The translations under genes were made by a program, and so were the position numbers. The notes under the pieces are model-generated. The model made no database searches. It was not told the origin of the DNA and saw only the letters and a list, made by a program, of their open reading frames with translations. 64,000 nt of DNA from contig NZ_AUHG01000011.1 of NCBI RefSeq assembly GCF_000423065.1, forward strand, positions 620,001 to 684,000. The letters are read 5' to 3'. Positions 53,800-62,484 of this stretch are shown piece by piece. This stretch comes from Christiangramia echinicola DSM 19838. Its GTDB lineage: Bacteria; Bacteroidota; Bacteroidia; Flavobacteriales; Flavobacteriaceae. Numbering within the stretch: position 1 is the stretch's first letter; every line of letters starts with the position of its first letter.

Positions 53800-55338
53800 A
53801 TGCTGGTAAAGGTATTTGGCAGTGCGGTTTATGGGGTAGAAGCCACTACGATCACTGTAGAAGTTAATGTGGCATCAGGGATTGGATATCATTTGGTTGG
53901 TCTTCCAGATAATGCCGTAAAAGAATCCAGTTACAGGATCACCGCTGCACTTCAGAATAATAAATTCAAGCTGCCGGGTAAAAAGATCATTATTAATATG
54001 GCTCCGGCAGATCTTCGAAAAGAGGGTTCGGCCTATGACCTAACTTTTGCCTTAGGTATACTTGCCGCTTCAGGGCAGATAAAAGCAGAAAACATTTCAG
54101 AGTACCTAATAATGGGAGAACTTTCTCTTGATGGAAGTCTGCAGCCTATTCGTGGATCTCTTCCCATCGCTATCCAGGCTAAGAAAGAAGGATTTAAAGG
54201 TTTTATATTACCAGAGCAGAATGCCAGAGAAGCTGCTATAGTATCTGGCCTTGATGTGTATGGAGTGAATAATATAACCCAGGTAATAGATTTCTTTGAT
54301 AGAGATTTGGATCTTGAAAAAACGGTGATAAATACAAGAGAGACCTTCTTTAAAAGTTTAGATAATCTGGAACATGATTTTGCAGACGTTAAAGGGCAGG
54401 AGTCCATTAAACGCTGCATGGAAATAGCTGCAGCCGGCGGTCATAATATAATTCTTATTGGTCCGCCAGGTGCAGGAAAAACGATGCTCGCTAAGCGTCT
54501 GCCCACTATTTTACCGCCTATGACCTTACAGGAAGCTCTAGAAACTACTAAGATTCATAGTGTAGCAGGAAGGATCAGGGATAATATAGGATTAATGGCG
54601 CAAAGACCTTTTAGAAGCCCGCATCATACGATTTCTGATGTTGCATTGGTCGGAGGTGGAGCATACCCTCAACCGGGTGAGATTTCACTCTCACATAATG
54701 GTGTTCTATTTCTTGATGAATTACCAGAATTTAAAAGGGGTGTGCTGGAAGTTATGCGACAGCCCTTGGAAGACAGAGAGGTTACGATATCAAGAGCTAA
54801 ATTCACCGTAACCTATCCTTCCAGCTTCATGCTGGTAGCGAGTATGAATCCAAGTCCCGGAGGGTATTTCAATGACCCGGGGTCTCCGGTGACTTCTTCT
54901 CCTTATGAAATGCAAAGATATTTAAGCAAGATAAGTGGTCCGCTTTTAGATAGAATAGATATCCATATTGAAGTGACTCCTGTGCCTTTTGAAAAGTTAA
55001 GCGAGGAAAGAAAGGGAGAAAGTAGTATAAAGATCAGGGAAAGAGTTACCAGAGCCAGGGAAATTCAAACAAAACGCTTTGAAGCCCTGGAGCACATCCA
55101 TTATAACGCTCAAATGGGACCAAGGCAAATCCTTGAATTTTGTAAACTTGATGATGCATCCAAAAATCTGTTGAAAACTGCCATGGAACGTCTAAACCTT
55201 TCAGCCAGGGCCTATGATCGAATTTTAAAGGTTTCCAGGAGTATTGCAGATCTTGAAGGTAGTGAGGGGGTAAAAGGAGATCATATTAGCGAAGCCATTC
55301 AATATAGAAGTTTAGATCGCGAAGGCTGGCTTGCCTGA
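53800..55338 (+). CDS. yifB: YifB/ComM-family Mg-chelatase-like AAA+ ATPase
   Basis: The 512-residue protein has an N-terminal ribosomal-S5/Lon-C-like domain (about 1-170, with GIGYHLVGLPDNAVKESSYRI and MAPADLRKEGSAYDL), then a Mg-chelatase ATPase core with Walker A GPPGAGKT (221-228) and Walker B VLFLDELPE (302-310), then SMNPSPGGYFNDP, and a C-terminal helical domain (ARAYDRILKVSRSIADLEG). ComM is a hexameric helicase that promotes branch migration in natural transformation; the family is widespread in bacteria that are not known to be competent. Length is normal for the family. It is likely monocistronic. Confidence 0.95.
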   Translation: MLVKVFGSAVYGVEATTITVEVNVASGIGYHLVGLPDNAVKESSYRITAALQNNKFKLPGKKIIINMAPADLRKEGSAYDLTFALGILAASGQIKAENISEYLIMGELSLDGSLQPIRGSLPIAIQAKKEGFKGFILPEQNAREAAIVSGLDVYGVNNITQVIDFFDRDLDLEKTVINTRETFFKSLDNLEHDFADVKGQESIKRCMEIAAAGGHNIILIGPPGAGKTMLAKRLPTILPPMTLQEALETTKIHSVAGRIRDNIGLMAQRPFRSPHHTISDVALVGGGAYPQPGEISLSHNGVLFLDELPEFKRGVLEVMRQPLEDREVTISRAKFTVTYPSSFMLVASMNPSPGGYFNDPGSPVTSSPYEMQRYLSKISGPLLDRIDIHIEVTPVPFEKLSEERKGESSIKIRERVTRAREIQTKRFEALEHIHYNAQMGPRQILEFCKLDDASKNLLKTAMERLNLSARAYDRILKVSRSIADLEGSEGVKGDHISEAIQYRSLDREGWLA

Positions 55339-55380
55339 ATATCTTGAGTTTTAATTAACTAAACCTAACTGGCTTTTTTA

Positions 55381-55388
55381 TATTTTTG
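55381..55388 (+). promoter_or_regulatory. putative -7 box of the DUF2891-Nramp-like-pxp operon
   Basis: TATTTTTG matches TAnnTTTG, 66 nt before the first gene's ATG. The leader contains a small hairpin near 55415-55438 (TTTCCG...CGGAAA). No -33 TTG at the usual spacing. Confidence 0.4.
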
Positions 55389-55454
55389 GAAAGACCGTAA
55401 ATACCAATCTACGTTTTCCGGAAGTTTTTCTTCGGAAACCAACAACCTAAACTG

Positions 55455-56618
55455 ATGAAAAGATTTTTTCTTGTATTAATATGTCTTGTAATTTTTTCCT
55501 GTAAAGGAGATAAAGCTAAGGAAACCGAAATTAATGAAACCGATAATGATAGTTTAGATGTGGAAGGGCTCCTGCCAGAAGGACTTGCTGTTTCTGAACC
55601 TGTGATTCTTGACTTAGAAGAAGCAAATAAACTCGTAGAATTACCACTAAGTTGTATAAATACAGAATATCCAAATAAATTAGGACAGACACTCGAAAAT
55701 AAAGAAGCTTTAGGTGAGCCTCACGAATTACATCCTGCCTTTTATGGATGTTTTGATTGGCATTCATCAGTGCACGCACACTGGTCTCTGGTTAGCTTAT
55801 TAAAACAATTTCCAAAAATTGAAAGAAAAGAAGCGATTAGAGAAGCTCTACAAAATTCACTTTCAGCCCAGAATATCCAGGGTGAAATTAAGTATTTCGA
55901 ACGTAAGGAAAGCGGATCCTTCGAAAGGACTTATGGCTGGGCATGGTTACTTAAACTGCAAGAGGAACTTAACACTTGGGAAGATCCAATGGGCCAGGAG
56001 TTATCAGGTAATTTGCAACCTTTGACCGATCTTATTGTGCAAAAATATATACAGTTTTTACCTAAACTTAATTATCCTATAAGAGTAGGGGAGCATACTA
56101 ATACCGCATTTGGTCTTACTATGGCTTATGATTATGCTGAAACTACAAAAAATGAAAAATTACTGGAAACCCTTAAGAAAAGGGCTCAGGATTTTTATTT
56201 GAAAGATGATGACTGTCCTGTTACCTGGGAACCTGGAGGATATGATTTTCTATCACCTTGTCTTTCTGAAATTGATATTATGAGAAGGGTGTTGCCTAAA
56301 AATGCTTTTAGTTTATGGGTAGATGATTTTATGCCTCAGTTAAAGAATAAAGATTTTGAGATGGAAGTGGCCGAGGTTTCAGATAGAACCGACGGGAAAT
56401 TAGTGCATCTTGATGGTCTTAATTTTAGTCGTGCCTGGATATTCTATGGTCTGGCAAAGCAATACCCTGATAACTTCGGGCATCTAAAAAGCCTTGCCAA
56501 TGAGCATATCGCTTATTCCTTTCCTAATGTTGTAGGTGATAGTTATGAAGGAGGACACTGGCTTGGAACCTTCGCTATTTATGCTTTACAGGAAGCACAG
56601 ATGAATGTGAAGAAGTGA
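55455..56618 (+). CDS. DUF2891-family lipoprotein, first gene of the 5-oxoproline operon
   Basis: The 387-residue lipoprotein has lipobox LVIFSCKGDK (Cys16). The body matches DUF2891: an all-helical fold with the conserved stretch LHPAFYGCFDWHSSVHAHWSL, a GEHTNTAFGLTMAYDYA block, DDDCPVTWEPGGYDFLSPC, and the late histidine-rich LVHLDGLNFSRAWIFYGLAKQYP. Conserved His and Asp/Glu suggest an enzyme or zinc-binding site. The gene overlaps the Nramp-like gene by 4 bp (GTGA) and opens the operon with pxpABC, so a role at the membrane in 5-oxoproline or glutamyl-peptide release is a reasonable guess. The fold and reaction are not known to me. Confidence 0.8.
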   Translation: MKRFFLVLICLVIFSCKGDKAKETEINETDNDSLDVEGLLPEGLAVSEPVILDLEEANKLVELPLSCINTEYPNKLGQTLENKEALGEPHELHPAFYGCFDWHSSVHAHWSLVSLLKQFPKIERKEAIREALQNSLSAQNIQGEIKYFERKESGSFERTYGWAWLLKLQEELNTWEDPMGQELSGNLQPLTDLIVQKYIQFLPKLNYPIRVGEHTNTAFGLTMAYDYAETTKNEKLLETLKKRAQDFYLKDDDCPVTWEPGGYDFLSPCLSEIDIMRRVLPKNAFSLWVDDFMPQLKNKDFEMEVAEVSDRTDGKLVHLDGLNFSRAWIFYGLAKQYPDNFGHLKSLANEHIAYSFPNVVGDSYEGGHWLGTFAIYALQEAQMNVKK

Positions 56619-57835
56619 AAAAATTTTTAAAAAATCTCGGGCCCGGTATATTGGTTTCAGCGGCATTTATTGGGCCCGGAACTGTAACTATTTGTAGTAT
56701 AGCCGGGGTGAACTTCGGCTATACGCTATTATGGGCATTATTAATTTCAATATTTGCCTGTATTGTACTTCAGGAAATGTCGGCTCGTTTAGGTCTGATC
56801 TCCGGAAAAGGTTTAAGTGACTGCATCCGTGATGAAATGAAAAATCCTGTGATCAGGATCTTTATTCTATTTCTTATTTTCTCAGCCATTGTGATTGGTA
56901 ATGCGGCTTATGAAGCAGGGAATATCACCGGTGCAGTTTTGGGAGCCGAAGCTGTTTTTTCTTCGGTTAATTTTGAAATTGGTGCATTCAGCATCAATAT
57001 CTGGAGTTTAATAATAGGAGGGGTCGCTTTTTCTCTTCTTTACCTGGGGAGCTATAAAAAACTTGAAAAAGTATTTATAGCCCTGGTTCTCTTAATGAGT
57101 ATAGCTTTCATTTTAACAGCATTTCTAACTAAGCCTGATCTATCTGAGGTTTTAAAAGGATTTGTACCCGGATCTTTCGATTCTGGTCTGTTAACCATTA
57201 TAGCTCTGGTCGGGACTACGGTAGTTCCTTATAACCTTTTTCTACATGCTTCACTGGTAAGTGAAAAGTGGAGTGGTCCCAAATTTCTGGGAGCCGTTAG
57301 AAAGGAGCTGGTTTTTTCTCTTATGCTGGGTGGATTGGTGTCAATGGCTATAGTAGTATGTGCCGCAGCTTCAAATATTAGTAATATTGAAAGTGCTGCA
57401 GATCTTGCCGTAGGACTGGAACCATTATTTGGTAGTTCGGCTACTATTTTCCTTGCCGTAGGACTTCTGGCTGCCGGGATCACCTCTTCTATTACTGCTC
57501 CGCTTGCTGCAGCCTATGTTGTGCAAGGGTGCTTGGGATGGAAAGGAGGAATGCAGTCGGCTAAATTTAAAATGGTCTGGATGATCATTATAATTCTTGG
57601 AGTATTGTTTTCATCTCTAGGAGTAAAGCCGGTTGAAATTATACAATTTGCCCAAATTGCCAATGGCCTGGTGCTGCCAGTCATTGCGATTTTCTTATTT
57701 TGGATAGTGAACCAAAGATCTGTTTTAGGTAAGCACAGAAATAATTTTCTCCAAAACCTGATAGGGGGCGTAGTAATAACATTGGCAATTTTTCTAGGTG
57801 TGAAGTCTATTTTTAATGTAATTCAGAACTTATAA
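56615..57835 (+). CDS. Nramp-fold transporter lacking canonical metal-site residues (YcsG-like)
   Basis: The 406-residue inner-membrane protein has about 11 helices and the LeuT-type Nramp fold. In true Nramps helix 1 carries D-P-G-N and helix 6 carries M-P-H, which bind the metal. Here helix 1 reads FIGPGTVTICS (Gly20-Pro-Gly-Thr23) and helix 6 reads TTVVPYNLFLHAS (Val204-Pro-Tyr206), so Asp, Asn, Met and His are all replaced. Start is GTG at 56615, overlapping the DUF2891 stop as GTGA. Bacillus subtilis ycsG, also Nramp-like, lies in the ycsF-kip operon that encodes PxpABC homologues. I therefore infer an organic solute, perhaps 5-oxoproline, rather than manganese or iron. Confidence 0.8.
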   Translation: MKKFLKNLGPGILVSAAFIGPGTVTICSIAGVNFGYTLLWALLISIFACIVLQEMSARLGLISGKGLSDCIRDEMKNPVIRIFILFLIFSAIVIGNAAYEAGNITGAVLGAEAVFSSVNFEIGAFSINIWSLIIGGVAFSLLYLGSYKKLEKVFIALVLLMSIAFILTAFLTKPDLSEVLKGFVPGSFDSGLLTIIALVGTTVVPYNLFLHASLVSEKWSGPKFLGAVRKELVFSLMLGGLVSMAIVVCAAASNISNIESAADLAVGLEPLFGSSATIFLAVGLLAAGITSSITAPLAAAYVVQGCLGWKGGMQSAKFKMVWMIIIILGVLFSSLGVKPVEIIQFAQIANGLVLPVIAIFLFWIVNQRSVLGKHRNNFLQNLIGGVVITLAIFLGVKSIFNVIQNL

Positions 57836-57908: not shown

Positions 57909-58649
57909 ATGAAAAGGATGATTCATATTAATTGTGACCTTGGAGAAGGCGGAGATTTTGATGAGGAGCTTATGCCATTGATTTCTGCCTGTAATATTGC
58001 CTGTGGAGGTCATGCAGGTAATTTAGAAAGCATGCATAGAACCGTTAGACTGGCCATGGAGAATAATGTAGAAATTGGTGCCCATCCATCATATCCAGAT
58101 CGTAAGAACTTTGGCAGAAATCATCTCGAAATGTCTGCAGAAGATCTTAAGCTCTCCATAGAAGGTCAGGTTTTAAGTTTGAAACAGATCGCAGAATCTG
58201 AAGGCGGAAAAATGACTCATATTAAACTTCACGGTGCACTCTATAATGATGCCGCAAAAGATGAAAAAATTGCCCGGTTAATTGTTGAATGTCTCCAGGA
58301 TCTCGAGGATGATTTCAAGATATTTGTTCCTCTAAATTCCAAGATTTCTGAATTTGCGATGGGGAAATTCGACCTGGTTTTTGAGGCATTTGCAGACAGG
58401 AATTATAATGAAAATTTCAGCCTGGTTTCACGTTCTGAAGGGCATGCTTTGATCACCGAAAAAGAAGAGGTTTTTAAACATGTTTTCTCCCTATATAATG
58501 ATAGAAAAATCATCACCAATTCCGGTATTGAAATAGATGGAAAAGCTGATACTTTTTGTGTGCATAGTGACACTCCTTCTTCCCTGGAGATTATTCAATT
58601 TTTGCATAAAAAGTTTGCTGAAAAAGGAATAGGAGTAAAGAATACTTAA
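57909..58649 (+). CDS. pxpA: 5-oxoprolinase subunit A
   Basis: This LamB/YcsF-family protein of 246 residues with PxpB and PxpC hydrolyses 5-oxoproline (pyroglutamate) to glutamate using ATP. It has IHINCDLGEGGDFDEELMP, NIACGGHAGNLESMHRTVRLA, VEIGAHPSYPDRKNFGRNHL, THIKLHGALYNDAA and EAFADRNYNENFSLVSRSE, the conserved blocks of the PxpA TIM barrel. There is no signal peptide; it is cytoplasmic. It is 73 bp downstream of the Nramp-like gene, and its stop overlaps the pxpB start by one base (TAATG). The product glutamate feeds central nitrogen metabolism. Confidence 0.94.
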   Translation: MKRMIHINCDLGEGGDFDEELMPLISACNIACGGHAGNLESMHRTVRLAMENNVEIGAHPSYPDRKNFGRNHLEMSAEDLKLSIEGQVLSLKQIAESEGGKMTHIKLHGALYNDAAKDEKIARLIVECLQDLEDDFKIFVPLNSKISEFAMGKFDLVFEAFADRNYNENFSLVSRSEGHALITEKEEVFKHVFSLYNDRKIITNSGIEIDGKADTFCVHSDTPSSLEIIQFLHKKFAEKGIGVKNT

Positions 58650-59380
58650 TGTCAAAATATCCTCAAATATCACCACTTGGAGACCGCTCTATACTAATAG
58701 ATTTTGGTGGAGAAATTAGTTCTGGATCGCTGGAAAAAGTCCTTTTCTTTAAGAAAAAGATAGAAAAATCAAACTTTAAACAAAAGGTTGAGGTAATTAA
58801 TACATACAACTCGTTATTAATTAGTTACCTATTCACTATAGAAGATGTCTATGGAGAGGTTTTGCGCTTAAAAGGCCTCGTAAGGCAGGCTAATATACCA
58901 AAAAAATCGAACTATAAAATTTTTCAAATCCCGGTTTGTTATGACAAGGATTTTGGTCTCGATCTGGAGTATATTTCTAAAGCAAATAATCTCACCATAG
59001 AAGATATAATTGAACTTCACACAGCTCCTTTATATCAGATCTATTTTATAGGTTTCTTACCCGGTTTTTTATACCTGGGAGGTCTTGATAAAAGACTTCA
59101 TATTTCAAGAAAAAAATCACCCCGCAAATCTGTTGAAAAAGGTGCCGTTGGTATAGGTGAAAATCAAACAGGAATTTACCCGAAATCCAGTCCTGGAGGA
59201 TGGCAGATTTTAGGTAAAACTCCTATTGATTTATTCAATAAAAATGAAGATCCTCCAACTAAATTTTCAGCTGGTGATAAAATTAGATTTGTTGCTGTTT
59301 CTAAAAATGAATTTGTCGAAATTGAAAAGGAAATCGCAGATCAAAATTACACTTTGAAATTTGAAAATTATGAAGGCTGA
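58649..59380 (+). CDS. pxpB: 5-oxoprolinase subunit B
   Basis: The 243-residue KipI/AHS1-type protein has PQISPLGDRSILIDFGGEIS at the start, the conserved FLPGFLYLGGLDKRLHISRKKSPR block, and GAVGIGENQTGIYPKSSPGGWQILGKTPI near the C-terminus. It forms the 5-oxoprolinase complex with PxpA and PxpC; the Bacillus homologue KipI was first known as an inhibitor of kinase KinA. Start overlaps the pxpA stop by one base and its end overlaps pxpC by 11 bp, so all three subunits are translationally coupled. Confidence 0.94.
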   Translation: MSKYPQISPLGDRSILIDFGGEISSGSLEKVLFFKKKIEKSNFKQKVEVINTYNSLLISYLFTIEDVYGEVLRLKGLVRQANIPKKSNYKIFQIPVCYDKDFGLDLEYISKANNLTIEDIIELHTAPLYQIYFIGFLPGFLYLGGLDKRLHISRKKSPRKSVEKGAVGIGENQTGIYPKSSPGGWQILGKTPIDLFNKNEDPPTKFSAGDKIRFVAVSKNEFVEIEKEIADQNYTLKFENYEG

Positions 59381-60239
59381 AATTGAAATTTTACAACCAG
59401 GTTTGTTTTCAAGTATTCAGGATCTGGGTAGATTCGGATATCAAAAATATGGTGTCCCGGCTAGTGGTGTAATGGATAGATATGCTATGCGAATTTGTAA
59501 TTTGGTACTGGGTAATCCTGAAGACACCGGAGTGCTGGAATTTACCATGCAGGGGCCGCATTTAAAATTTACTGAGTCAACTTCAATTTCTATTAGTGGA
59601 GCAGATCTTTCTGCAAGCTTGAACGGAAATTTAATTCCGATGAACGAGCGTATTGAAATAAATGCTGGAGATGAGTTGAAATTTGGTAAGCCAAGGTCAG
59701 GTTTCCGTGCTTATATGGGAATCCTGGGCGGATTTATTTCTGAAGAGCTTATGGGTAGTAGTAGCTGGTATGAAGGTCTTACAGAGAATATCAGGTTGAC
59801 GAAGGGAATGAAGTTGCATTATTCCTCAGAGAATTTGGTAGAAGTTGATACTTACTCTTCCTTAAAAATTGAATCTGACTATGTGCTTTCCAAAGAAATA
59901 GAAGTTTATCCTGGACCTGAATATGATAAATTATCGGTAGACCAGCAGAAAACAATTTTTAATTCTGAATATACAATTGAAGAAACCAGTAATCGAATGG
60001 CGGTTCAATTTAAAGAAGATTTTGAAAATGAGCTGGAACCTATAATAACCGGTCCTGTAATGCCGGGAACCGTTCAATTAACACCTTCAGGAAAGCTAAT
60101 TCTACTTATGAGAGATTGCCAGACTACTGGTGGATACCCCAGGATATTACAGCTTTCGGAATATGGAATACAGGTATTAGCTCAAAAATTACCTGGAGAA
60201 AAGGTCGGCCTTTTTAGAAAAGAATATCCTAATTTCTAA
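59370..60239 (+). CDS. pxpC: 5-oxoprolinase subunit C
   Basis: The 289-residue KipA/AHS2-type protein (biotin-dependent carboxylase extension fold) is the third 5-oxoprolinase subunit. It has QPGLFSSIQDLGRFGYQKYG, the conserved VPASGVMDRYAMRI, and TQ/SGADLSASLNG blocks, with RDCQTTGGYPRILQLSEYG at the end. ATG 59370 is chosen over an in-frame TTG nine bases upstream: it gives the usual KAEIEILQPG start and a conventional 11-bp overlap with pxpB. A large hairpin at 60259-60336 follows its stop by 20 bp and probably terminates the operon. Confidence 0.94.
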   Translation: MKAEIEILQPGLFSSIQDLGRFGYQKYGVPASGVMDRYAMRICNLVLGNPEDTGVLEFTMQGPHLKFTESTSISISGADLSASLNGNLIPMNERIEINAGDELKFGKPRSGFRAYMGILGGFISEELMGSSSWYEGLTENIRLTKGMKLHYSSENLVEVDTYSSLKIESDYVLSKEIEVYPGPEYDKLSVDQQKTIFNSEYTIEETSNRMAVQFKEDFENELEPIITGPVMPGTVQLTPSGKLILLMRDCQTTGGYPRILQLSEYGIQVLAQKLPGEKVGLFRKEYPNF

Positions 60240-60258
60240 ATGTAAATTCATTAAACAT

Positions 60259-60336
60259 AAAAAAGTGCCACCGTGGTTTTATGTTATAGAAAAGACCCTA
60301 CTCAGAACTATAACAAACCTTGGTTAGCACTTTTTT
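60259..60336. terminator. large imperfect hairpin after pxpC (terminator, possibly a mobile palindromic repeat)
   Basis: AAAAAAGTGC (60259-60268) pairs with GCACTTTTTT (60327-60336). Inside, the arms continue imperfectly, with GTTATA (60283-60288) facing TATAAC (60309-60314) around a 20-nt apical loop. The T tract makes it a credible bidirectional terminator, but its 78-nt size and composite stem are unusual and resemble a REP or MITE-type unit. Confidence 0.65.
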
Positions 60337-60401
60337 GCCCCAAAACACTTTAGCTTTACTAAAATGACTGAAACAAATATAGGTTAGAAGATCAATGGTC
60401 A

Positions 60402-60962: not shown

Positions 60963-61703
60963 ATGAAAGAATATCTTATTTATATTTTCGAAACGAAAAT
61001 TTATATTACTCATCTAATGGAATTAATTGCTGCCGTAGCAGGCAGCATTTTTCTCACAAAAACTAACCGGGAAAATTCTGATTATAAAATTTTCGTAAGA
61101 TTCTTATGGTCTGTCCTGTTAATAGATATACTTGGTGGATATGCCGCACTGGCGTATTTCAGTAACTACGAATTATTTGGATTCATAAAGGGAACACCAT
61201 TTGTTCGCAATGAATGGTACTTCAATATAGTAGAGGTTTATTTTATTCTTATATATACCTATCTTTTCCGTAGCCAATTATCTGGAAGAAGAATGAAATA
61301 TTTACTCAAATGGAGTATGATGGGTTATCTGATAATTGCAGTTCTAAATATGTATTTAAGTGATGATTTTTTTACTGGGGACCTTATGTTGAATGACATG
61401 TTAGGGGCTTTTTTGATCGTATTATCTGTATTCTTCTATTTTTTTGATATGATGATTAGTGATAAGGTACTTACCTTTTATAAAAATCTATTTTTTTACG
61501 TTGCCATAGGCGTTACCATTTCCTACCTGGTGAGGGTACCCATTAGTATATATGGAGCCTATTTCAATGAAAGGAATGATGCTTTTCTTGAATTGTTTTA
61601 TGACCTGGTAAGATATACTAACATTTTTATGTATTCCATGTTTGCTATGGGCTTTTATATGGATTATAGGTACAGGAAAAAATGGTTATTACAAAATACC
61701 TGA
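60963..61703 (+). CDS. seven-helix membrane protein, paralogue A
   Basis: The 246-residue protein has seven hydrophobic segments (about 20-35, 47-69, 86-103, 116-135, 140-162, 173-197 and 218-235) and no signal peptide. It starts MKEYLIYIFETKIYITHLME and ends in GFYMDYRYRKKWLLQNT. It is clearly related to the next gene: both share the N-terminal ETK(I/L)YI, a loop (K/D)(G/S)(T/S)PF(V/R)RN(E/V)W, a helix before KVLTFY/RILTFY, and GFYMDYR at the end. No known receptor or transporter family is evident to me. It lies in front of a kinase that has only one membrane helix, so a sensory or accessory role is possible. Confidence 0.7.
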   Translation: MKEYLIYIFETKIYITHLMELIAAVAGSIFLTKTNRENSDYKIFVRFLWSVLLIDILGGYAALAYFSNYELFGFIKGTPFVRNEWYFNIVEVYFILIYTYLFRSQLSGRRMKYLLKWSMMGYLIIAVLNMYLSDDFFTGDLMLNDMLGAFLIVLSVFFYFFDMMISDKVLTFYKNLFFYVAIGVTISYLVRVPISIYGAYFNERNDAFLELFYDLVRYTNIFMYSMFAMGFYMDYRYRKKWLLQNT

Positions 61704-61737
61704 TATCTTTACCGGTAACCGTTAATTCTGCGTTTGT

Positions 61738-62484
61738 GTGAAGCTGATAGAATTTCTTCTAGAAACAAAATTATACATTGGGACGATATTCGAAATAATC
61801 GCGGCACTTTTCGGATTATGGTTTTTAAGAAAATCAGAGAGTACGGCATTAGAGATTAAACTATTTGTCTATTATCTGGTTTTAATAGTATTCTTAGAGA
61901 TTTATGCCTATTTACCTATTTGGGCCTATCTTGAAGAATATGAGATTCTCGGTTTTTATAAGGATTCCCCTTTTCGAAGAAATGTATGGTGGGCTAATAT
62001 TCTTAAAATTATCACGACGCTGTGTGTTTCATGGATATATATCAAGGCACTGAGAAATCATGAATTAAGACGAAATCTTATTTATATCCTTTTAGTTTAC
62101 CCGGTCTTGAGTATCATTAGTTTTTTTACTATCGGAGAATTTTTCAATGCATATGATCCCTATGTAAATATCATTGGAACCTTTATAATCCTTATTAGTG
62201 TAGGTTCATTTTATGTAGAAATTCTGAGATCAGATCGTATACTTACTTTTTATGGTGATATTAGATTCTATATTTCTTTCGGAATGATTCTCTGGAGCCT
62301 GTGTATGGTTCCTCTTGATATTTATAGTAGCTTTTTCAGTCTGAAAAATCCTCTTTACATAGAGCTTCATACATTAATTCATCGTTATGCGAGCATTTTT
62401 CTGTATTCCTTATTTTCGCTAGGATTCTATATGGATTATAGAATGAATAGAAATGGAAAAGGCCAATCGGTTAAAAATAGTTGA
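61738..62484 (+). CDS. seven-helix membrane protein, paralogue B
   Basis: The 248-residue protein has the same seven-helix layout as the preceding gene and the shared landmarks KDSPFRRNVWWANI, SDRILTFYGDI and GFYMDYRMNRNG. The start is GTG at 61738: the sequence MKLIEFLLETKLYIGTIFEI then aligns with the start of paralogue A. It follows that gene by 34 bp, and both are preceded by a similar CCGGTRAMCG motif 26-32 nt before their starts, consistent with a tandem duplication that included the leader. Function unknown. Confidence 0.7.
   Translation: MKLIEFLLETKLYIGTIFEIIAALFGLWFLRKSESTALEIKLFVYYLVLIVFLEIYAYLPIWAYLEEYEILGFYKDSPFRRNVWWANILKIITTLCVSWIYIKALRNHELRRNLIYILLVYPVLSIISFFTIGEFFNAYDPYVNIIGTFIILISVGSFYVEILRSDRILTFYGDIRFYISFGMILWSLCMVPLDIYSSFFSLKNPLYIELHTLIHRYASIFLYSLFSLGFYMDYRMNRNGKGQSVKNS

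Follow-up and report, generated by a model that had tools for sequence, protein, structure and literature searches.

A probable 5-oxoproline importer of the Nramp family in the 5-oxoprolinase operon of Christiangramia echinicola

The window analysed in this study, a stretch of 64,000 nucleotides from Christiangramia echinicola DSM 19838 (contig NZ_AUHG01000011.1, positions 620,001 to 684,000), contains a gene for an Nramp-related transporter ahead of the 5-oxoprolinase genes pxpA, pxpB and pxpC. The encoded protein, a member of a group of Nramp relatives termed the GPGT/VPY clade after two of its motifs, is probably a LeuT-fold importer of 5-oxoproline, judging from sequence comparisons. This function is the best supported one because the clade is recurrently linked to two unrelated types of enzyme and because its metal site is neutralised, and 5-oxoproline is proposed as the substrate since it is the simplest one common to the members linked to PxpABC and those linked to HyuAB. 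An earlier note, made from the DNA alone, had raised 5-oxoproline import as a possibility; the suggestion stands on the two grounds just given, though the idea is not new in outline.

Replacement of the metal-binding residues

The transporter gene and three sites within it are located as follows (positions are those of the window, residue numbers those of the protein).

56615..57835, + strand: gene of the Nramp-related transporter, GPGT/VPY clade, probable 5-oxoproline importer (406 residues, GTG start; assigned by PF01566, motifs and predicted fold)
56672..56683, + strand: GPGT of transmembrane helix 1 (TM1), residues 20-23, DPGN in canonical Nramps (G20 and T23 in 56/56 clade rows; D20 and N23 in 9/9 canonical rows)
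56921..56923, + strand: Asn103 of TM3, Glu in canonical and NRMT-like proteins (N in 56/56 clade rows; E in 9/9 canonical and 5/5 NRMT-like rows)
57224..57235, + strand: VPYN of TM6, residues 204-207, MPHN in canonical Nramps (V204, Y206 and N207 in 56/56 clade rows; MPH in 9/9 canonical rows)

The protein matched the Pfam family PF01566 (Nramp) with 293.8 bits against a cut-off of 29.8, as well as the NCBIfam equivalog 'Nramp family divalent metal transporter' with 97 bits against a cut-off of 50. It nevertheless fails the motif tests for a canonical Nramp/MntH protein, being without DPGN, MPH and the TM3 glutamate, which is given as E134 of DraNramp in PMC12873925. The NRMT-like motifs (DNDAGG in TM1 and APW in TM6, both present in L017 and L097-L100) and the MumT-like motifs (GPGFLTQT in TM1 and GGTVGGY in TM6, both present in L116, L121, L126-L130 and L133) were likewise absent.

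Five replacements were found in all 56 clade rows of the alignment, a set which leaves out ten close Christiangramia rows and the truncated proteins L015 and L103: D to G20, N to T23, E to N103, M to V204 and H to Y206. The NRMT-like rows (5/5) keep acids at columns 18, 20 and 103, none of which are present in the clade. Across the sampled clade, the Nramp scaffold is kept while the metal-holding side chains are replaced by neutral ones. The earlier note had read GPGT for DPGN and VPY for MPH and had concluded that all four classic ligands were gone, both of which the alignment bears out; the change from E to N103 had escaped it, as had the DUF2891 gene at the head of the operon. Its statement that the residues were 'lost' is correct as to their absence, but the direction of change which it implies may be wrong, as Nramp-related proteins are described as paraphyletic to the canonical metal-binding Nramps in a 2026 preprint (PMC12873925). 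Retention of D, N, M and H in most orthologues, named in the same note as evidence that would count against import of 5-oxoproline, was not seen: the motifs are kept in 0 of 48 pxpA-linked Nramp-like proteins (40 alignment rows, six proteins in L126-L130 and L133, and those in L116 and L121), including L015, which is truncated before TM1 and has TM6 alone visible. The departure from the two motifs in the window protein is accordingly no chance event.

Other positions vary more or are less securely aligned. At residue 205 in TM6 the 4 rows from haloarchaea have G and a single Bacteroidota branch, also of 4 rows, has T, while position 100 in TM3 is E in 50 and Q in 6 of the 56 clade rows, the window protein having E100. 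A basic residue, K/R319 in TM9, is present in 56/56 rows, although the column is somewhat doubtful; MAFFT and phmmer disagree on the column of the TM9 basic residues, and a role of K319 in a proton pathway is a hint only.

The GPGT/VPY clade and its relatives

When 76 proteins of the Nramp family were placed in a maximum-likelihood tree, 57 of them, the window protein included, formed one group apart from the canonical and NRMT-like rows; TM1 read GPGT in 56 of the 57, the exception being L103, which is unreadable there. The clade comprises Pxp-linked Bacteroidota proteins, haloarchaeal proteins and a Bacteroidota branch with HyuAB, and its identity to the window protein ranges from 31% (the truncated L103) to 85%, with 47% for the haloarchaeal L048. 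Twelve full-length orthologues in Christiangramia/Gramella are 73-85% identical. The only other Nramp-family match in the host genome, L002 (C2:720471-721526), is distant (53.9 bits) and without DPGN/MPH; a canonical MntH was not found in the host assembly, which is 99.85% complete.

A separate GPGF/GGY group consists of MumT of Acinetobacter baumannii, one protein from a Lactiplantibacillus plasmid and six from Bacteroidota, each encoded beside pxpA; the two proteins from plasmid records were placed by the tree and the six Bacteroidota proteins by motif. By sequence, the window protein belongs to the GPGT/VPY clade and is separate from YcsG (also MntG) of Bacillus subtilis, which at only 21% identity falls outside it; close orthology to YcsG was considered and ruled out by the 20-21% identity. 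We infer that YcsG and PxpT of Corynebacterium glutamicum belong with the GPGF/GGY (MumT-like) group. PxpT is reported to be 50% identical to YcsG (PMC13274462), and PMC12873925 places MntG in 'G-motif 3', describing the Nramp-related groups other than the NRMT-like one as uncharacterised. The L121 protein gave no match at E 1 or better to PDB chain sequences.

Linkage to two types of lactam-opening enzyme

The window protein was used to search 198 Bacteroidota genomes, with linkage defined as a distance within 10 kb. Of the 49 clade matches, among them a weak one (G178) and a fragment cut off by the end of its contig (G128), 36 were near either enzyme (PxpA 27, Hydantoinase_B 9) and 13 near neither, compared to 1 of 101 other Nramp matches among the matches listed (Fisher p 1e-22); the genome of that single linked match has its own clade member inside a pxp operon. 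At the level of genomes, all 49 carriers of a clade member hold an enzyme (PxpA 37, Hydantoinase_B 12, both 0), compared to 27 of the 149 non-carriers (p 3e-27, a value inflated by kinship). The carriers span 11 GTDB families, as counted from family codes, and within the window's own family a hand count gave 8/8 carriers with an enzyme versus 2/11 others (p 7e-4). A clade member is absent from 10 genomes with PxpA, of which 6 have a GPGF-type Nramp relative beside pxp (L126-L130, L133) and one has, between its pxp genes, an unassigned gene for a multi-helix membrane protein (L132), while no Nramp relative was seen at the remaining loci L125, L131 and L135.

In Bacteroidota, the HyuAB-type enzyme next to the clade member comes as HyuA with HyuB or as one long OPLAH-like chain, for instance that of 1279 residues in L080, where a DUF2891 gene, the OPLAH-like gene and the Nramp relative follow one another on one strand. 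The best solved relatives of this chain are the N-methylhydantoinase 7hk5 and the 5-oxoprolinase/hydantoinase pair 6yra. PxpABC and HyuAB/OPLAH match different Pfam families, and both families open a lactam in an ATP-driven reaction.

Among the matches listed, HyuA lies directly after the clade member in 22 of 23 haloarchaeal plasmid records by coordinates, the records including several strains of one species and the exception being a Natrononativus record. In the three linked loci viewed, HyuA and then HyuB come immediately after the clade member, and HyuAB of the haloarchaea may by extension act on 5-oxoproline. With glutamate as the product, a dehydrogenase gene beside the set of RHH, Nramp, HyuA and HyuB genes would be expected, and Haloarcula hispanica has one of the Glu/Leu/Phe/Val dehydrogenase family immediately before it, with gdhB about 5 kb off; no gene of the glutamate dehydrogenase type was seen in the other two of these three loci. 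The Halorussus cluster ends with an arylmalonate decarboxylase-type gene which weakly resembles Asp/Glu/hydantoin racemases.

In 4/4 haloarchaeal loci viewed (L048, L049, L112 and L114), including L112, which is without HyuA, the Nramp gene comes after a gene of the CopG ribbon-helix-helix (RHH) type, the product of which is a candidate regulator. A canonical Nramp on a Natrinema plasmid comes after a gene for a metal-dependent regulator.

Comparison with characterised transporters and the rival case of metal import

An AlphaFold2 model of the transporter, built from 16 sequences, had a mean predicted local distance difference test score (pLDDT) of 69.7 and a predicted template modelling score of 0.68. 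Helix breaks were predicted in TM1 at residues 19-20 and in TM6 at residues 203-204, as in the LeuT-type fold. The closest solved folds were EleNRMT (Z 40.6) and DraNramp (Z 40.3), followed at Z 25-30 by ApcT, other amino-acid transporters and the potassium importer KimA. The model supports the predicted fold and not a ligand.

Two described proteins resemble the window protein in being Nramp-family members encoded in an operon with PxpABC, namely PxpT and YcsG. PxpABC is described as 5-oxoprolinase in both B. subtilis and C. glutamicum, and PxpT was reported in 2026, from deletion and complementation, to be required for growth on 5-oxoproline (PMC13274462), while import of 5-oxoproline had earlier been assigned to YcsG (Niehaus 2017, as cited in later papers). 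PxpT is a more distant Nramp relative, and its role speaks in favour of 5-oxoproline import by the window protein. The remark in the earlier note that, as far as was known, no such function had been assigned to this family is therefore out of date. Its parallel to ycsG in the equivalent Bacillus operon holds for the presence of an Nramp relative with PxpABC, but not in the narrow sense of an equivalent gene, since the YcsG structure 9a52 (an integrative model) and the window protein have 382 structure-aligned residues with an identity of 21% (Z 37.5), lower than for any clade member.

MumT shares with the window protein the absence of DPGN/MPH and an operon with PxpA, here together with a PxpBC-like fusion, a biotin carboxylase and a 'hydro-lyase' resembling D-glutamate cyclase. 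It differs in its TM1 (GPGF) and TM6 (GGY), in an identity of 21.9% and in being a reported Mn importer. The genes at L116:4707-10911 of A. baumannii match the published mum operon by content, the biotin carboxylase being judged by eye, and this 'urea' operon has the look of a biotin-dependent variant related to the 5-oxoprolinase operon. EleNRMT, a Mg2+ transporter, is Nramp-related and the best fold match at 29% identity, but the NRMT-like proteins have A and W at positions 204 and 206 in addition to their three acids, and no oxoprolinase gene was nearby in the 5/5 NRMT-like loci fetched. DraNramp/MntH, the canonical SLC11 type, shares the fold and differs in its DPGN, MPH and TM3 glutamate.

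These comparisons bear on the main rival reading, according to which the window protein would import a divalent metal (Mn2+ or Mg2+) for the oxoprolinase or its product pathway, through a site re-modelled like those of EleNRMT, YcsG/MntG and MumT. Membership of the Nramp family (PF01566) favours it, as do published genetic and cell-metal data for Mn import by two relatives: raised ycsG expression led to more cell Mn, a triple importer mutant was obtainable only when a further copy of ycsG was supplied, and the promoter of the ycsG operon is bound and repressed by MntR (PMC10448178), while loss of MumT led to less cell Mn (PMC5050338). EleNRMT, moreover, moves both Mg2+ and Mn2+ without DPGN/MPH (PMC12873925), so that motif loss alone proves nothing. 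By sequence, however, both of the reported metal importers, YcsG/MntG and MumT, are outside the GPGT/VPY clade, the former being only 21% identical to the window protein. Metal uptake, the second finding named in the earlier note as a refutation, is on record for these relatives outside the clade. All 56 clade rows are without an acid at the TM1/TM3 metal positions, unlike the canonical and NRMT-like proteins, and the linkage of the clade follows two unrelated enzymes. The haloarchaeal members are preceded by a ribbon-helix-helix gene (4 loci), as opposed to the metal-dependent regulator gene ahead of the canonical Natrinema Nramp. Metal import is consequently considered unlikely for the window protein.

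Proposed function and remaining alternatives

In the proposed mechanism, the window protein would act as a secondary transporter carrying the anion 5-oxoproline (pyroglutamate) through the inner membrane, and PxpABC would then open it to glutamate with ATP. The unwound Gly-Pro-Gly-Thr of TM1, the Val-Pro-Tyr of TM6 and Asn103 of TM3 would line an uncharged pocket, in which the carboxylate and the lactam could be bound by backbone amides and by polar side chains. Glycine-rich TM1 segments bind carboxylates in a similar way in amino-acid transporters of the amino acid-polyamine-organocation superfamily. Transport might, more tentatively, be coupled to protons, since E100 (TM3) and K/R319 (TM9) remain, and the DUF2891 lipoprotein could work on the far side of the inner membrane, either on this substrate or at a step preceding it.

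Besides the metal data on YcsG/MntG, MumT and EleNRMT, several points weigh against 5-oxoproline import. No transport assay on a protein of the GPGT/VPY clade is known to us, and the support of the clade in the tree (92/85) lies slightly under the tool's star. Residues 203-205 of the structure model have a pLDDT below 50 and the overall confidence is middling, and the pocket therefore cannot be read from it. The linkage is incomplete in both directions, since 13/49 clade matches are more than 10 kb from both enzymes and 27 of the non-carrier genomes hold an enzyme without a clade member. Similarly, HyuA at roughly 60% identity or above was present in 26 haloarchaeal records, 4 of which (Halobacterium, Halarchaeum, Halomarina and Halorubrum) are without a clade member among the 40 Nramp matches listed. 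The closest NCBIfam models to HyuAB are caprolactamase and acetophenone carboxylase, all far below cut-off, and enzymes of the HyuAB family act on several substrates.

Another reading is that the protein imports different amino acids or lactams, or a wider range of them (glutamate, glutamine, hydantoins, small lactams), 5-oxoproline being only one substrate. The range of lactams on which HyuAB relatives act would fit such a protein, as would the racemase-like gene of the Halorussus cluster and the 13 unlinked members. All 13 nevertheless belong to genomes that hold one of the two enzyme types, PxpA or Hydantoinase_B, and the activity given for PxpABC in the two species mentioned above is that of a 5-oxoprolinase (PMC13274462), which makes a broader specificity rather improbable. 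The direction of transport is unreadable from sequence and 5-oxoproline arises inside cells, as would suit an exporter of 5-oxoproline or glutamate, or a sensor without transport; this is regarded as very improbable, given that C. glutamicum needs PxpT for growth on external 5-oxoproline (PMC13274462) and that the model retains the helix breaks in TM1 and TM6 which mark an alternating-access carrier.

Import of 5-oxoproline as the probable function has consequences for annotation and for the literature. All 22 HyuA-linked haloarchaeal records name the clade protein 'Nramp family divalent metal transporter', and if the proposed function is true the whole GPGT/VPY clade is misnamed. The literature on Nramp relatives in pxp operons is in conflict between import of Mn and import of 5-oxoproline, and a clade free of acids at the TM1 and TM3 metal positions, paired with two unrelated enzymes, offers a clean test case, which may also show how metal transport evolved on the scaffold of an amino-acid transporter. 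A bolder idea, which we hold to be doubtful, is that Nramp transporters began as importers of organic anions (5-oxoproline or a related lactam), the GPGT/VPY clade keeping that trade while metal transport arose later as the neutral TM1/TM3 positions became Asp/Glu. In that case Bacteroidota and haloarchaea would have an entire, uncharacterised class of 5-oxoproline importers, named 'divalent metal transporter' by annotation pipelines, with a DUF2891 partner outside the inner membrane in some lineages. The tree was midpoint-rooted and permits no inference on ancestry.

By their titles and the starts of their abstracts, PMC13274462 and PMC10448178 alone seem to concern Nramp relatives in pxp operons, and it has already been argued that such a relative imports 5-oxoproline (PxpT) or Mn (YcsG/MntG, MumT). 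Literature searches for Nramp with 5-oxoprolinase, pxpA or 5-oxoproline returned no title on the GPGT/VPY clade, and no paper combining Nramp and hydantoinase was found. As far as searched, the new elements are the tie of the clade to two unrelated enzymes, the complete neutralisation of its site, TM3 included, and the repeated occurrence of a DUF2891 gene.

Operon layout

The remaining features of the operon are listed below.

55346..55389 (ends approximate), + strand: conserved promoter-like block TTTAATTAACTAA ... TTTTTATATTTTTG (from the upstream-region alignment; putative function)
55455..56618, + strand: DUF2891 lipoprotein gene, first gene of the operon (PF11199, 463 bits; lipobox LVIFSC with C16, by eye)
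57909..58649, + strand: pxpA, 5-oxoprolinase subunit (PF03746; NCBIfam NF003814 above cut-off)
58649..59380, + strand: pxpB, 5-oxoprolinase subunit (TIGR00370 above cut-off)
59361..60239, + strand: pxpC, 5-oxoprolinase subunit (TTG start, with an ATG at 59370; PF02626 (CT_A_B) 225.7 bits, cut-off 25)
60258..60337, + strand: terminator-like hairpin 3' of pxpC (minimum free energy -26.3 kcal/mol, z -5.6, 0/200 shuffles equally stable)

The gene order is DUF2891 lipoprotein, Nramp-related transporter, pxpA, pxpB and pxpC, all on the + strand, with the start of the transporter gene overlapping the 3' end of the DUF2891 gene by 4 bases. The Pfam and NCBIfam matches of the three genes directly downstream agree with the earlier note that the operon encodes PxpABC; PxpC also matched NF045499 and TIGR00724, with scores below the NCBIfam cut-offs. 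When the upstream region of the window was aligned with those of 12 Christiangramia/Gramella loci, a 14-base box was invariant in all 13 regions and the box preceding it nearly so, while the flanks drift. As the block is kept while its surroundings are not, transcription of the operon probably starts ahead of the DUF2891 gene. A flavobacterial promoter consensus was considered for this block and gave no firm match.

In genome G053 (loci L157 and L076) the operon is split, with the DUF2891 and Nramp genes together at one place and the pxp genes about 260 kb off; the latter come after a gene whose start resembles that at window positions 53800-55338.

DUF2891 and its associations

Within the Bacteroidota sample, DUF2891 lies no more than 10 kb from the Nramp-like gene in 7/49 clade matches, directly adjoining it in 6, versus 0/101 of the others listed. 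This proximity is the one striking association; as a strict marker of oxoproline use DUF2891 was not supported genome-wide, as an oxoprolinase-type enzyme is present in 11/19 DUF2891 genomes versus 65/179 others (p 0.08), and the 8/19 DUF2891 genomes with neither enzyme speak against a strict tie. The DUF2891 protein of the window is homologous to Cj0554 of Campylobacter jejuni (crystal structures 8ieu/8iev; 38% identity in the Foldseek match). Beyond its own family the fold gave weak matches, the best being a GH76 enzyme at E 0.017, from which no function was derived.

In C. jejuni, a mutant of cj0552-4 (DUF969, DUF979 and DUF2891) is reported to have lost the use of 5-oxoproline in a preliminary growth test (PMC12795558). 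This proposed 5-oxoproline uptake system is similar to the window operon in its DUF2891 gene, but its DUF969/DUF979 proteins are of another transporter family. The same trio was found in 2 of 4 plasmid loci viewed, those of Klebsiella and Niveispirillum, and not in those of Agarilytica and Roseomonas. Being found beside the Nramp relative as well as beside DUF969/DUF979, DUF2891 therefore travels with two unrelated transporters; its company with DUF969/DUF979 and the C. jejuni growth result count in favour of 5-oxoproline as the substrate in the window operon. DUF969/DUF979 was considered as an alternative transporter in Bacteroidota and set aside, with 2 weak matches to DUF969 and 0 above cut-off in the 198 genomes; DUF979 was not searched. 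On the Roseomonas plasmid (L118:4970-6990), the DUF2891 gene overlaps the 3' end of a gene for a P1-family peptidase, a hint that DUF2891 may work together with peptide or amide hydrolysis.

Downstream of the operon, at window positions 60963-62484, two neighbouring open reading frames of 246 and 248 residues resemble membrane proteins and look paralogous by eye.

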